Origin: an uncultured Mucispirillum sp. | GTDB lineage: Bacteria; Chrysiogenota; Deferribacteres; Deferribacterales; Mucispirillaceae | Reading direction: 5' to 3' | Assembly: GCA_944326705.1 (NCBI GenBank) | Contig: CALVEY010000005.1 | Span: 1 to 64,000 of the forward strand | DNA: 64,000 bases | Part shown: positions 5,308 through 14,854 of the stretch, one piece after another | Layout of the letters: each line of letters begins with the position of its first letter | How positions within the stretch are numbered: the stretch's first letter is position 1 | Notes under the pieces: model-generated | The model's input: only the letters and a program-made list of their open reading frames with translations | What the model was told of the DNA's origin: nothing | The model's database searches: none | Made by a program: the position numbers and the translations under genes

Positions 5308-8300
5308 ATGTATCCTGAAAACATCGGGCTTTATGACAGCCAATACGAAAAAGATGCCTGTGGTGTGGGGCTTATTGCAGATTTAAAAAATATACCAACA
5401 CACCAGACTGTAGAAAATGGTATTACAATTTTGAAAAATTTAATGCACAGAGGTGCAACAGGCGGCGACCCTGAAACTGGTGATGGTGCTGGTATTCTTG
5501 TATCACTGCCAGATGAATTTTTTAGAAAAGTAGTAAAAGAAAAACTGCCTGAATATGGCAAATATGGTGTTGCCGTTATTTTTGGCGGAGAAAGTATCGA
5601 AGATGATATTGAAAAAATAATTACAGAAAAATGCGGCGAAATTATCTGCTGGCGTGATGTTCCTGTGGACCTTAATGCAGTAGGCAAAGCTGCAAGAACT
5701 ACCTGTCCTAAAATAAGACAGATATTTATAAAAAGTAAATATGATACTCAAGCTCAGTTTGAAAGAAAACTTTTTATTGCAAGAAGGTTAATAGAAATTA
5801 AGCTTTCAAATGTATACATACCTAGTATGTCATCAAAAAGTGTTGTATATAAAGGGCTTTTTATGGCAACTCAGGTAGAAAACTTTTATCAGGATTTAAA
5901 AGATGCTTCTTTTAAATCACCTATTGCATTAGTTCACCAAAGATACAGCACAAATACATTTCCAACATGGGAGCTTGCTCACCCATTTAGATATATTGCT
6001 CATAATGGTGAAATAAACACATTAAAAGGCAACTTAAATAACCTTGCAGGCAGAGAGCCACAGTTTTCATCAGAGCTTTTAGGGGAAGATTTAAAAGAAA
6101 TTCTTCCATTAATTAAAGAAGGTCAAAGTGACTCTGCATCTCTTGATAATATGTTTGAGCTGCTTGTTGCAAGCGGAAGAGATTTATGCCATGCGATGCT
6201 TATGCTTATTCCGCAGGCATGGGGACCAAAATACCACATGGGTAAAGATGTAAGAGCATTTTTTGAATATCATTCTGCATTAATGGAACCATGGGACGGT
6301 CCTGCTGCTGTTGCATTTTCAGATGGTGTGAATGCTGGTGCTATACTTGACAGAAACGGACTCCGCCCTGCAAGATATACAGTTACTACTGATAATGTAT
6401 TAGTGCTTGCTTCAGAAACTGGTGTACTTGATATTCCAGCAGATAAAGTTCTTAAAAAAGGCAGACTGCGTCCTGGTGAAATTATATACTGTGACTTAGA
6501 AAACCATAGAATTATATCTGATGCAGCCGTTAAAAAAACTGCTGCTAGAAGCCTGCCGTATAGAAGATGGATTAATGAAAACAGAATATATGTACATGGG
6601 CTTTTTGAATCACTTTCTCCAGCTGAGCCGTCAAGAAATATTATTAAAAAACAAAAACTCTTTGGATATACTAAAGAAGATTTTGATTTTATCATTAAAC
6701 CAATGGCAGAAAAAGGTGCAGAACCTGTAGGCTCTATGGGAAATGATGCAGCACTTGCAGTATTAAGTGAAAAACCACAACTTTTATTTAACTATTTTAA
6801 ACAGCTTTTTGCTCAGGTTACTAACCCGCCAATAGATTCTATCAGGGAAGATTTAGTTATGAGTCTTATTACATTTATAGGTAATAAAGGCAACATATTA
6901 GAAGACGGCGCATACCATGCAAGAGTAATTGAGCTTCCAAGACCTATCATTACAAATGATGAGCTTAAAAGGCTTAGAAGTATTAGAGAAGAAGGCTTCC
7001 AGTCTGCAGTAATTAATATATCATTTAAAAATGATTTAGAGCAGTCATTAAAAAATATTGCAGAAATAGCAGTTGAAAAAGTAAAAGAAGGCTGTCCTAT
7101 ATTAATACTCAGCGATAAAAATATTGAAGATGGATATACTCCAATACCATCTCTGCTTGCTGTAACAGCAGTAAATAAAGCATTATCAAAAGCAGGTATT
7201 CGCCCAGAATCTGCAGTTATTTTAGAAACTGGTGAGGCAAGAGAGATTATGCACTTTGCTCTGCTTTTAGGCTATGGTGCAACAGCTGTATGCCCTTACC
7301 TTGCACTTGAAAGTATATCTGCCCTTGTTGATGATAATGAAATAAAAGCAGATAAAGTAAAAGCTACAGAAAACTATGTGAAAGCTGTTGATAAAGGGCT
7401 TTTAAAAGTAATGAGTAAAATGGGTATTTCCACATTAAGAAGTTACAGAAGCGGCCAGCTTTTTGAAGCAGTTGGTTTAAACAACGATATAATCAAAGAA
7501 TTTTTTACAGGAACAGCAAGCCGTATTAATGGTATAGACTTAAAAGAAATAGAACATGAAGCATTAATGAGAAGAAAAGCAGCTGATGAACATAATGATG
7601 ATATGCTTGCTTCAGGTGGGCAGTATCATTATAGAAAAGATGGTGAAAACCATTTATGGACACCAGAAAGTATGACATTATTCAGACAGGCTGTTCAAGG
7701 CAATAATAAAGAAAAATATAAAGCTTATGCAAAACTTATTAATGAACAGTCAAAACATTTATGCACATTAAGAGGACTTTTTGAATTTGCAACAGCAGTG
7801 CCTGTACCTTTAGAAGAAGTTGAAAGTGCATCATCTATTGTTAAAAGGTTTGTAACAGGTGCTATGTCACTTGGTTCTATCAGCCCAGAAGCTCACGAAA
7901 CAATAGCTATTGCTATGAATAAATTAGGTGGTATGAGTAACTGCGGTGAAGGTGGCGAAGACCCAGAAAGATATAAACCTAACGAAAAAGGCGAAGTAAG
8001 AAGCAGTGCTATTAAACAAATTGCAAGCGGCAGGTTTGGTGTTACTATAGAATACTTAACTAATGCAAAAGAGCTGCAGATTAAAATGGCACAAGGTGCA
8101 AAACCTGGTGAAGGCGGTCAGCTTCCAGGACACAAAGTAGATGCCTTTATTGCAAAATTAAGACACTCTATGCCTAATGTAAGCTTAATATCTCCTCCTC
8201 CACACCATGATATATATTCTATTGAGGATTTAGCTCAGCTTATATATGACCTGCGTAACTCTAACCCTGAAGCAAGAGTATCTGTAAAACTTGTTTCAGA

Positions 8301-11133: not shown

Positions 11134-12366
11134 ATGGCAAAAATTAACTCTAATTATTTACTGCTTCCTAACAGCTATCTTTTTGCAGAAATTGCAAGAA
11201 AAATTAAAGCATATCAGGAAGCTAACCCAAAAGCAGATATTATTAGAATGGGGATTGGGGATGTTACCCGCCCCCTTACTAATGCAGTAGTTAGTGCAAT
11301 GGAAAAAGCAGCAAAAGAAATGGCTGAAAGCTCAACTTTCAGAGGATATGGACCTGAGCAGGGGTATGATTTTTTAATCAATGCTGTAATTAATGGAGAG
11401 TATAAATCAAGAAATATTGATATATCACCAGATGAGATATTTATCAGTGACGGCTCAAAATGTGATGTAGCTAATATTCAGGAAATATTTGATATTAACT
11501 CTACTGTTGCTATTGCTGACCCAGTTTATCCTGTATACCTTGACAGTAATGTTATGGCTGGAAGAAGCGGTAAATTAAATGATAAAGGATATTTTGAGAA
11601 AATCATTTATATGCCTTCTACAAAAGAAAATAATTTTAAACCTGCTTTTCCAGACAGACATGCAGATTTAATATACATTTGCTCACCTAATAACCCAACA
11701 GGTGCAGCATTAACAAAAGCAGACCTTAAAGCATGGGTAGATTATGCACTGGAAAATAACTCTATTATTTTATATGACAGTGCATACAGTGCATATATTC
11801 AAGAAGAAGATGTATGCGGCTCTATATATGAAATACCTGATGCTAAAAAAGTAGCAATAGAATTTAAATCATTTTCAAAAACTGCAGGTTTTACAGGTAT
11901 AAGATGCGCTTTTACAGTTGTGCCAAAAGAGTTATATGCTTTTGATGATATGGGTAATAAGGTTGCACTTAATAAACTGTGGAATAGAAGGCAGACAACT
12001 AAATTTAACGGCGTATCTTATGTTACTCAAAGAGCAGCCGAAGCAGTATATTCTGAACAAGGTATGAAAGAAACAAAAGAAGTGGTTAAATACTATATGA
12101 ATAATGCTAAAATAATCTTAGATGGATTAAAACAGGCAGGTTTTGAAGTATATGGCGGCGTTAATGCTCCATATATTTGGTGGAAAATACCTGATGGTAT
12201 TAAGTCGTTTGATTTTCTTGATATTTTACTTGAAAAATATCAAATAGTAGGCACACCAGGCTCTGGCTTTGGTCCATGTGGCGAAGGATATTTTAGATTA
12301 ACAGCATTTGGCAGCCAAGAAAAAACTAAGGAAGCAATGCAGCGAATATCACAAGGCAGCTTCTAA
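11134..12366 (+). CDS. dapL: LL-diaminopimelate aminotransferase
   Basis: 410 aa, a fold-type I PLP enzyme of the DapL family. It converts tetrahydrodipicolinate to LL-diaminopimelate with glutamate as amino donor, bypassing the acylated dapD/C/E route to lysine and peptidoglycan. N-terminal [20 protein letters not shown] and [12 protein letters not shown] are typical of DapL. The PLP lysine is K249 in [12 protein letters not shown]. It starts two bases after the gltD stop and ends at a strong terminator. Co-transcription with gltBD links its amino donor to its supply. The family is well separated from other aminotransferases. Confidence 0.93.
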
Positions 12367-12387: not shown

Positions 12388-12413
12388 CCCCCTGAATACT
12401 TCAGGGGGTTTTT
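12388..12413 (+). terminator. Intrinsic terminator of gltB-gltD-dapL
   Basis: CCCCCTGAA and TTCAGGGGG form a perfect 9-bp stem with a three-base loop, followed by TTTTT, 21 bases past the dapL stop. Confidence 0.93.
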
Positions 12414-12446
12414 AATATGTAAGAATATTAATTAAAATTAATATTC

Positions 12447-12965
12447 TTATTCATATTTAACTAGTTTTGTATTAATGTCAATATTACGAGCTAATGGATG
12501 TTTTGGAGAACCATTTTTGTTTAAACCTAAACAATATAAATTTAAACCAAGTGATTTTAATTTTTCACATACTTCAATATCACGATTTAAAAGGTTACCA
12601 TCATTTCCCCATGCAACTACGATTATTTTAGATTTTTTTGTGATTTCATCAATCCAATAATCATTATCAGGTCCAACAGGATTATTATGTATGTATAAAT
12701 CTTTCGGTTGTGATGACCTTAATGCAAATAGGTTAATAACATATATGCCACTACAATTCTCTTTTTTTGCTAACATAACACACTTACGAATAGTTGGGTC
12801 ATCTTTTAGAGCATCTGCTTTACTTGGGTTGAGCATGATAAATGTCATCATTTCATTATTAATATCCCATGTCCGCTGTAAAAAATATCTATATGTTTTG
12901 CATGAAGAAATTTCTGCGTCGGAAGTAATATACTTCACTGTCCTAGCACCATCCATCGTTGCCAA
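12447..12965 (-). CDS. DUF1643 domain protein
   Basis: 172 aa, complete. The conserved DUF1643 signature is clear: FIMLNPSKADALKDDPTIR, then VINLFALRSSQPKDL, VAWGN and a C-terminal HPLAR. The function is not known; the family occurs scattered on phages, plasmids and genomic islands. It is the second gene of a two-gene unit facing its neighbours and overlaps the Cys-rich gene by up to 31 bases (22 if the second Met, at 12956, is the start). The patchy family and opposed orientation suggest acquisition by transfer, and expression is probably set by the poly-C promoter upstream. The domain is clear; the role is open. Confidence 0.85.
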   Translation of the reverse strand: MATMDGARTVKYITSDAEISSCKTYRYFLQRTWDINNEMMTFIMLNPSKADALKDDPTIRKCVMLAKKENCSGIYVINLFALRSSQPKDLYIHNNPVGPDNDYWIDEITKKSKIIVVAWGNDGNLLNRDIEVCEKLKSLGLNLYCLGLNKNGSPKHPLARNIDINTKLVKYE

Positions 12966-13141
12966 TTATTGCAATTATCTGTAGGATATTTTTCATTTCC
13001 ATTCCAAGACCTTTTATTATAGCATTTACCTTTATGATTATCCATATATTCCACATTATCAAACCAATTATCTGGTTCACGATGACCAGACCAATATTCA
13101 CATGTTGCACATTGTTCTCTTTGTTTGTTACATGATGCCAT
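12935..13141 (-). CDS. Small Cys- and Trp-rich protein, unknown function
   Basis: 68 aa with five cysteines (C4, C11, C14, then two near CYNKR and CNNW) and five Trp, a pattern suggesting a small metal-binding or zinc-ribbon-like fold. It has no signal peptide or membrane segment. The ATG has AAGGAG six bases upstream, and it is the first gene after the poly-C promoter. Its 3' end overlaps the start of the DUF1643 gene, implying coupled translation. I do not recognise a named family. The strong ribosome site and promoter argue that it is a real gene. Confidence 0.65.
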   Translation of the reverse strand: MASCNKQREQCATCEYWSGHREPDNWFDNVEYMDNHKGKCYNKRSWNGNEKYPTDNCNNWQRWMVLGQ

Positions 13142-13189
13142 AAAAACTCCTTCTTATTTAATTATTTAAATATTATCAGCTGATTTTAA

Positions 13190-13217
13190 AAAATATCATG
13201 GGGGGGGGATTTGTCAA
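13190..13217 (-). promoter_or_regulatory. Promoter with poly-C spacer, probably phase-variable
   Basis: On the minus strand TTGACA (13217-13212) and TATTTT (13195-13190) flank a 16-base spacer containing nine consecutive C (13208-13200). Loss or gain of one C by slippage would move the spacing to 15 or 17. The tract sits 59 bases before the Cys-rich gene start. A run of nine C is exceptional in DNA this AT-rich. Phase variation by spacer-length change is established for Neisseria and Haemophilus promoters; its use here is inference. Confidence 0.6.
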
Positions 13218-13236: not shown

Positions 13237-13266
13237 CTTTACAATTTTGTAAAATTTAATTATAAC
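13237..13266 (+). promoter_or_regulatory. Promoter of the NifA-like regulator overlapped by a palindromic operator
   Basis: CTTTACAA-TT-TTGTAAAA (13237-13254) is one base short of the full palindrome seen between glnN and gltB. Its left arm contains TTTACA (13238-13243), which with TATAAC (13261-13266) forms a sigma-70 promoter with a 17-base spacer. A protein on the palindrome would cover the -35, so repression of this gene, probably self-repression, is the simplest reading. Confidence 0.6.
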
Positions 13267-13294: not shown

Positions 13295-14854
13295 ATGGCA
13301 GGCAGAAAATCTAAACAAGAAGAACATTCATTAAGTGCAGAAATTACAGTATTACAAGAAATAAGCTACGCTATCGTTCATAAAAAAAATGTCAGCGAGC
13401 TTTTACACCAGATATTAGAAATATTAAGCTCACGGCTTAATATGATACGCGGCACATTCACTATTGTAAAACATAATAAATTATATATTGAAGCTACTCA
13501 TGATTTACATGAAGCTGAAAAAAAGCATATTTCATACAATATAGGTGAAGGAATAACTGGCCATGTAGCAGAATGCGGCAGACCTCATTTAATTGAAGAT
13601 ATCGTTCATGACCCTAGGTTTTTAAACAGACTTGGCGCAAGAGATAAAGATGAAAAAATTGCATTTATATGTGTGCCTATTATTAATATGGAAAGAGTTA
13701 TAGGCACATTAAGTGTTGATAGAGTCATGGATGAAAATGCTGACCTGCAAAAAGATTTAAAATTTTTAGAAATTGTGGGCAATATTGTAGGTGAAGCATT
13801 AATGGCTGTAGTGGCAGAACATGAAGAAAAAGAACAGCTTATACACGAAAATAAACAATTAAGAGATATGCTTGATGATAGTAACCCGCCTGCTTTAATT
13901 GGTAACTGCAAAAGTATGCGTGATATATATGCACTAATCAAACAGGTAGCAGCAAGTGATGCAACAGTGCTTCTTCGTGGAGCTTCTGGTACTGGTAAAG
14001 AAATGGTTGCAAGAGCAATAGTGTCACTTAGTGATAGAAAAGATAAACCTTTTATTACATTAAACTGTGCAGCAATCCCAGAAAACCTTGTAGAAAGTGA
14101 GCTGTTTGGTCATGAAAAAGGTGCATTTACTGGCGCTGTTGCAAGGCGTATAGGTCATGTAGAAAAAGCAAATACAGGCACATTATTTCTTGATGAGGTT
14201 GGAGATTTATCACTTGCTTCACAAGTAAAGTTATTAAGATTTATTCAGGAAAGAACATTTACAAGGCTTGGCAGCAGCCAGACTTTAAAATCAGATGTGC
14301 GGTTAATTGCTGCTACAAGTAGAAATCTTGAAGAAATGATTGCAAATGGTCAGTTTAGAGAAGACTTATATTACAGGCTTAATATTTTCCCTATCACTAT
14401 GCCTGATTTAAATTCCAGAAGAAGCGATATTATACTTTTAGCAGAACATTTTATTGAAAAACATAACTTAAGATATAAAAAAAATATAAAAAGGCTTTCC
14501 ACCCCTGCTATTAATATGCTTATGAGTTACCACTGGCCTGGCAATGTAAGAGAGCTTGAAAACTGTATAGAAAGAGCAGTTATTACAGCAACAGATGACT
14601 GTATACATGGATATAACCTGCCTGCATCTTTACAGACTGGTAAAACATCTAATTCTTCACTTTTACCTGATGGTGCAGCTTCATTTAATACTCTTGTAGA
14701 TTCTTATGAAAGAGAATTAATAGTAGAATCATTAAAAAGAAACCACGGAAATATGTCTGCAGCTGCTAGAGATTTAGATTTATCACCAAGAGTAATACAC
14801 TATAAAATAAGACGGCTTGGTATTACTCCAGAATGGTATCAAGATAAGGTATAA
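13295..14854 (+). CDS. NifA-like sigma-54-dependent activator (GAF-AAA+-Fis)
   Basis: 519 aa. N-terminal GAF sensor (about 28-170), a linker, then the AAA+ domain with Walker A GASGTGKE (K235), the sigma-54 contact loop GAFTGA (276-281) and Walker B LFLDEVGDL. A Fis-type helix-turn-helix is at about 478-515. This is the NifA order, but no nitrogen-fixation gene is in the window and no receiver domain is present, so it is not NtrC itself. Its place beside glnN/gltBD-dapL and the palindrome it shares with them suggest a role in nitrogen assimilation. The effector is not known. Class is certain, target inferred. Confidence 0.92.
   Translation: MAGRKSKQEEHSLSAEITVLQEISYAIVHKKNVSELLHQILEILSSRLNMIRGTFTIVKHNKLYIEATHDLHEAEKKHISYNIGEGITGHVAECGRPHLIEDIVHDPRFLNRLGARDKDEKIAFICVPIINMERVIGTLSVDRVMDENADLQKDLKFLEIVGNIVGEALMAVVAEHEEKEQLIHENKQLRDMLDDSNPPALIGNCKSMRDIYALIKQVAASDATVLLRGASGTGKEMVARAIVSLSDRKDKPFITLNCAAIPENLVESELFGHEKGAFTGAVARRIGHVEKANTGTLFLDEVGDLSLASQVKLLRFIQERTFTRLGSSQTLKSDVRLIAATSRNLEEMIANGQFREDLYYRLNIFPITMPDLNSRRSDIILLAEHFIEKHNLRYKKNIKRLSTPAINMLMSYHWPGNVRELENCIERAVITATDDCIHGYNLPASLQTGKTSNSSLLPDGAASFNTLVDSYERELIVESLKRNHGNMSAAARDLDLSPRVIHYKIRRLGITPEWYQDKV

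Follow-up and report, generated by a model that had tools for sequence, protein, structure and literature searches.

The two-gene unit described here is best explained, overall, as an acquired and phase-variable gene for a UDG-like base-excision enzyme (DUF1643) with a coupled Cys-rich and probably zinc-binding partner, a reading to which a probability of about one half is given. It was found in a 64,000-nucleotide stretch of Mucispirillum DNA. According to this proposal, the variable spacer would hold an accessory insert with a single transcription unit, made up of the Cys-rich protein and the translationally coupled DUF1643. Within all that was searched, the two genes are paired in this genome alone.

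The two-gene unit and its site in the genus

The unit lies on the minus strand and consists of the gene for a 68-aa Cys-rich protein (12935..13141; ATG at 13141-13139, TGA at 12937-12935), with a Shine-Dalgarno sequence AAGGAG on the same strand at 13147-13152, 5 nt before the ATG, followed by the DUF1643 gene (12447..12938). Its neighbours are a glutamate-synthase/aminotransferase run on one side and a sigma-54 activator on the other, and both of its genes run opposite to these flanking plus-strand genes. The biosynthetic run, judged by eye to be GltB/GltD-like, ends with a class I/II aminotransferase (11134..12366, plus strand), and the activator (13295..14854, plus strand) has a GAF, sigma-54-interaction and Fis HTH architecture, both genes being assigned by domain matches. 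For DUF1643, the mechanical ORF list gives a TTG start (12447-12965); however, the GTG at 12938 is probably the start in use rather than the listed TTG at 12965, since the 163-aa protein then begins with MKYITSD and aligns with the MNYISSD of the ortholog in a second genome of the genus (G009). From this GTG, the protein of the present genome (G000) aligns end to end with that free-standing ortholog at 69% identity. In the printed sequence, the stop codon of the small ORF and the start of DUF1643 share a 4-nt GTGA (12935..12938, minus strand), an overlap that suggests translational coupling between them. The ORF list and the printed sequence are thus in agreement with the original prediction of two overlapping reading frames opposed to all neighbours. 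A perfect AT-rich inverted repeat with 14-bp arms, TAAGAATATTAATT/AA/AATTAATATTCTTA, was also observed at the 3' end of the DUF1643 gene (12420-12449), where it overlaps the stop codon.

The edges of the insert were drawn by eye from a comparison of the same site within the genus, in which the activator was located in eight of ten genomes, and these eight form the comparison. The left edge is the intrinsic terminator of the upstream plus-strand operon (12388..12408, plus strand), and the right edge is a TTTACAA-TT-TTGTAAA inverted repeat in the activator promoter region (13238..13253, plus strand). This repeat is kept in 8/8 sites and is a probable operator of the sigma-54 activator gene. DUF1643 was found at two of the eight sites (G000 and G009) and the Cys ORF at G000 only, while five sites hold a short empty spacer and one, in another species (G006), is filled by an ORF judged by eye to be transposase-like (locus L013, 3199-4137). 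The presence of this ORF in the same intergenic site points to the spacer as a repeated insertion point. An accessory and patchy unit, as had been claimed, is therefore what the eight sites reveal, with both genes together at just one of them. Cargo of a mobile element with clear ends was considered and rejected, as visual inspection of the edges of the insert among the same-genus sites showed neither terminal repeats nor a target-site duplication.

PF07799 matched above its cut-off in 2/59 genomes searched, both of this genus; weak DUF1643-like matches in two order-level relatives (G034, G015) were discarded, being under the cut-off and interrupted by stops. Between G000 and G009, the DUF1643 gene has a dN of 0.185 and a dS of 0.743, and the neighbouring aminotransferase a dN of 0.047 and a dS of 0.694. 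The similar dS values indicate that DUF1643 has been resident since the common ancestor of the two genomes, so that it is probably older than their split and under purifying selection. Purifying selection, which the original prediction presumed for the small ORF, was in this way found for DUF1643; for the small ORF, what was seen is conservation at the family level, among relatives in other phyla.

The Cys-rich protein family and its pairing with DUF1643

The 68-aa protein carries the motif C-A-T-C-x-Y-W-x-G-x-R ... G-K-C ... C-x-x-W-x-x-W, and its small-ORF relatives in other phyla share 29-41% identity and four invariant Cys. Among ten aligned members, the four Cys, W17, G19, R21, W63 and L66 are kept. 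The search was seeded with one phage contig and one plasmid, and profile scans then extended the set by one viral contig and nine from genomes; further scans found the Cys family in 4/397 genomes of one taxonomic family (one of them already known) and in 2/289 relatives, G000 among them, a weak match in G014 being left out. Among the models of Pfam, NCBIfam, PHROG and PADLOC, none fits these proteins. Judged by its sequence, the small ORF belongs to a real, rare and undescribed family, and its protein probably binds zinc. The only matches obtained from PDB sequences were ribosomal L37 proteins (E 0.07-0.18), which were set aside as a shared zinc-ribbon-like Cys pattern and not homology.

By their gene content, the neighbourhoods of the family are defence-flavoured, yet they are not those of one system. 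A WYL regulator (Pfam) adjoins 3/20 family loci (L008, L041, L183), and other neighbours include PDDEXK_4 (L008), HSDR_N (L180) and a VWA-like DUF2201 gene, which overlaps the Cys ORF by an ATGA in L017, a locus that also has a DUF262 gene two genes downstream of the Cys ORF. Some of the three loci with WYL were additionally seen to have a nuclease or DnaB-like ATPase gene, and L008 a reverse-transcriptase-like ORF (by eye). In L041, Cys mini-ORFs stand in tandem, at 5968-6171 and from 6172 onward, the second being a weak family match (E 7e-5).

The idea that the Cys-rich protein and DUF1643 are a conserved pair was not supported. A profile search for the Cys family gave nothing better than E 0.07 in a set of 110 further loci retrieved for their DUF1643 (of viral, phage, plasmid and bacterial origin, with 107 distinct centres and flanks of 1.5-5 kb where the contig allowed), that is, the family occurs at 0/110 of them. 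Conversely, a DUF1643 profile found the domain at 0/20 Cys-family loci; the same profile recovers 108/110 DUF1643 loci, missing L193 and L194, which Pfam accepts just at its cut-off. DUF1643 is present elsewhere in two of the 12 genomes or records that have the Cys family, and the G009 ortholog is found without a Cys ORF. Since no second adjacency was found in 110 plus 20 loci, a conserved two-gene system was rejected.

These counts also lend weight to the strongest competing explanation, in which the two proteins are unrelated cargo under one promoter and the small one works by itself, as a regulator or a zinc-ribbon adaptor for other loci, often those with nuclease or WYL genes. The absence of either gene from the loci of the other, the WYL, PDDEXK_4, HSDR_N and DUF2201 neighbours and the solitary DUF1643 of the same genus all agree with such an arrangement, which is a serious contender and could well be correct. 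On the other hand, the 4-nt GTGA overlap suggests that expression of the two genes is coupled. A physical partnership between the Cys-rich protein and DUF1643 is nevertheless doubtful. Membership of either protein in a known defence family was likewise tried and rejected, since PADLOC has no model for the Cys-rich protein or for DUF1643 and NCBIfam returned one chance-level match.

DUF1643 as a candidate UDG relative

The second protein is a full-length member of DUF1643 (PF07799; phrog_3230), matched at E 8e-46 with 155.8 bits, where the cut-off is 22.5, over positions 1-134 of the 134-position profile. The domain was found in 144/50,697 phage records and 1160/72,556 plasmid records, as anticipated by the original prediction, which described it as common on mobile DNA. 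Thus, more than 1000 plasmid and more than 100 phage records carry a domain for which the available portions of the literature consulted state no function. In contrast to the DUF1643 genes of phages, plasmids and SCC elements, the present one is chromosomal, lies behind a poly-C promoter and is overlapped by a Cys mini-ORF. The available text of two staphylococcal SCC descriptions places DUF1643 near SAUGI UDG inhibitor genes (PMC10821479, PMC12540322), and a further source, likewise available in part, describes an ISL3-type IS that has DUF1643 as its cargo (PMC13231603). A link between DUF1643 and UDGs is not stated in the available portions of the literature found, and the domain is absent among the best 5 of 1,268 matches on glycosylases and defence.

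In 77 DUF1643 sequences, R17, R22, N37, P38, S39, A41, T49, N69, W110, G111, P145, H147, P148 and L149 are invariant, and no Cys is invariant or nearly so. This set (A5) was obtained after 2/80 loci were dropped for want of a clean ORF and 14/78 for redundancy or length, with 2/14 first-scan loci left out. Four UDG signatures were recognised in UDG order, namely LNPS, vNLF, AWG and HPL. The invariant N37-P38-S39, located after a predicted strand (30-35), corresponds to UDG motif 1 (G-x-N/D/E-P) and aligns with this motif in both family 4 and Mug. Similarly, the invariant N69 corresponds to the base-reading Asn of the second core strand and aligns with the aNiv Asn of family 4, and H147-P148-L149, invariant in all 77, may correspond to motif 3 (H/N-P-S/A), the profile alignments ending before HPL. 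The residue roles are those of UNG and SMUG1. On this basis, N37 (LNPS) would represent motif 1, N69 (NLF) the base-reading Asn and H147 (HPL) motif 3, while the strand before W110-G111 would be the third core strand. In the S. tokodaii UDG, N82 is given as the usual base-reading Asn in the available text of its source (PMC11078745).

Profile comparisons by hhalign gave matches to three UDG families that are weak but exceed their controls. Against family-4 UDGs, three motifs aligned in order, FImLNPS falling on MFVGeaPG, vNLF on aNiv and vVAWG on viCLGs, with a score equalled by 2/300 column shuffles; against Mug, the alignment was at motif 1 (1/100 shuffles as good) and, against UNG, at the LLWG motif (3/100 shuffles as good). 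The profiles were built from 40 family-4 UDGs (10/50 UDG loci were not entered), from E. coli mug with 9 of 25 rows listed among 100 matching records, and from five UNG loci with GQDPY. The hhalign probabilities of DUF1643 against UDG families were low (1.4-8.3%); for scale, family 4 gave 5.15 (0/60 shuffles) when compared with UNG, to which it is accepted as related, and 95.7 when compared with Mug. By this test, DUF1643 would be about as distant from family 4 as UNG is. When single sequences were used, comparisons with Mug and the family-4 seed remained inside the shuffle range, and that with L173 came out just above it, at 16.27, the best shuffle scoring 15.97. A Pfam search of the protein returned only DUF1643, UDG being below detection, and a PDB sequence profile search gave no UDG up to E 10 and no credible relative.

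AlphaFold2 models built from 13 and 77 sequences had mean pLDDT values of 88.7 and 93.8, and Foldseek found no match to either at E <= 0.001. With VIA-align, both models matched UDGs and UdgX at Z 4.7-6.0 and rmsd 3.7-4.3 over 123-143 of 160-163 residues, values under 8, for which the documentation of the program warns that the likeness may be no more than a common arrangement. Indeed, glutamate dehydrogenase, esterase, transketolase and other alpha/beta folds are tied in Z with the UDGs, and the UDG reading was chosen because of coverage and motif order, not Z. In relation to the UDG superfamily (family 4, UNG, Mug, UdgX), DUF1643 has the N/D-P motif, the base-reading Asn, the third-strand G motif and a candidate HP motif in the same order, and UDG and UdgX structures turn up repeatedly among its fold matches, although profile and fold scores are weak; unlike family 4, it is devoid of the four Fe-S cysteines. 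Taken together, a divergent member of the UDG superfamily, with the four-stranded alpha/beta/alpha UDG fold, is the likely identity of DUF1643.

As a UDG member with these motifs, DUF1643 would cut the N-glycosidic bond in DNA or nucleotides, leaving abasic sites, and such enzymatic activity is slightly more likely than not. A different enzyme was also weighed, namely a Rossmann-like nucleotide N-hydrolase or nucleotide-metabolism enzyme of DNPH1 or CMP N-glycosidase type, active in phage or plasmid salvage or base modification, in which case the promoter switch would only limit cost. When the second model was compared, chains of DNPH1 and of CMP N-glycosidase scored on a par with UdgX (Z 5.4-6.3; DNPH1 itself Z 6.3, rmsd 3.7, 102 residues). 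The neighbours of viral DUF1643 genes, which are mixed and have no dominant partner, would also suit such an enzyme, since they include five D12-class and two C5 DNA methyltransferases among 118 proteins, a thymidylate synthase-like gene in phage AXL_3 and a nicotinate phosphoribosyltransferase in CcrColossus. However, DNPH1-type matches span 92-107 residues, against 123-142 for UDG, and the invariant residues keep the UDG motif order, which makes this enzyme type an unlikely one.

The poly-C promoter, the proposed role and known systems

Upstream of the small ORF, a minus-strand promoter (13190..13217) is formed by TTGACA (13217-13212), a 16-nt spacer containing C9, and TATTTT (13195-13190), with an extended TG before the second hexamer. 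Under a first-order model, a tract such as this one, G9 on the plus strand (13200..13208), is expected about 0.02 times in 64 kb, and a weaker test by 7-mer shuffling gave at least three matches in 5/100 shuffles. Genome-wide, 37 G/C tracts of at least 8 were counted, against about 3.7 expected 8-mers under a first-order model. Five of 30 runs examined lie in promoter spacers of 15, 16 or 19 nt behind a TTGACA first hexamer (L239, which is this locus, L252, L261, L262 and L263), the other four preceding lipoprotein-like genes. The pattern TTGACA-C7+-TA occurs at eight distinct places in this genome (C5, C15 three times, C35, C36, C42 and C66), and over ten genomes it was matched 113 times, against 2 for the reversed pattern, overlapping readings being counted. 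Inspection covered 22 distinct class loci, outside which stands L263, a real member missed by the regular expression. Fifteen of the 22 precede lipobox proteins (11 by regular expression, four by eye), three precede other envelope-like genes (by eye), three have no clear gene or are doubtful, and the remaining one is this unit, the only case with a soluble Cys-rich ORF.

The position of C9 in the spacer, together with the genus-wide class, makes phase variation likely, and promoters of the type TTGACAT-T-C9-ATGATA are likely a phase-variation repertoire of the genus. Slippage in the tract would change the -35/-10 spacing, which is 16 now and would be 17 at C10, so that cells would differ in making the proteins of the unit. 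The original prediction of a switchable promoter finds its counterpart in this architecture, and tract switching at C9 is probable. The homopolymer might instead be an assembly or mutational accident within a constitutive promoter, given that one genome per species leaves a single tract length on record and that a spacer of 16 is already usable; such an accident is quite improbable in view of the excess of tracts and of the same architecture across the genus. Least probable is a phase-variable surface or antigen system acting on the envelope and not on DNA, for although the lipobox majority of the class and the TCCCCCCCCCATGATA...AAATCAGCTGATAA elements shared with lipoprotein promoter L261 would suit co-regulation with lipoproteins, no signal peptide or lipobox was seen by eye in either protein and the unit is the sole soluble Cys-rich case.

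Homopolymer-spacer promoters that vary in phase, such as Neisseria porA with its poly-C/G between -35 and -10, usually serve surface proteins. The present promoter has the same placement of the tract and its genus class serves mostly lipoproteins, but the two proteins of this unit look soluble. Nothing on this promoter class was found in the literature searched under Mucispirillum or poly-C phase variation, a search that cannot prove absence. The class would offer the genus a ready repertoire for phase variation, among whose lipoproteins one soluble and putatively DNA-related unit stands out.

For the phase-variable, UDG-like reading, the likeliest benefit would be a form of bet-hedging that protects against foreign DNA carrying non-canonical bases, of the sort known for Brig1 and Brig3. 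A defence role is a tentative suggestion made by analogy, for which a Brig-like anti-phage function is plausible. The frequency of DUF1643 in phages is hard to square with a role directed solely against them, and counter-roles may be conceived there. The fullest version, in which DUF1643 would be an unrecognised UDG clade that travels on phages, plasmids and SCC elements and that here, behind a lipoprotein-type poly-C switch, would supply an anti-phage enzyme that excises bases, varies in phase and is coupled to a zinc-ribbon partner, is speculative and rather improbable. The glycosylase hypothesis centred on N37 and H147 makes the DUF1643 family directly testable, beside the recent Brig enzymes.

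According to the available portions of their descriptions, Brig1 and Brig3-BapA are UDG-superfamily enzymes working outside repair, in defence against phages with modified bases, the role to which that of DUF1643 is likened (PMC11078745, PMC13160076). Those portions mention no phase-variable promoter in the Brig systems, unlike the present unit, and BapA is described as a glucosyl hydrolase, unlike the 68-aa Cys-rich protein, the likeness being one of description. Brig3 is nonetheless described as acting from a two-gene operon with its partner, as this two-gene unit might, and the best structural match reported for Brig1, the S. tokodaii family-4 UDG, is also among the fold matches of DUF1643 (4zbx/4zby).
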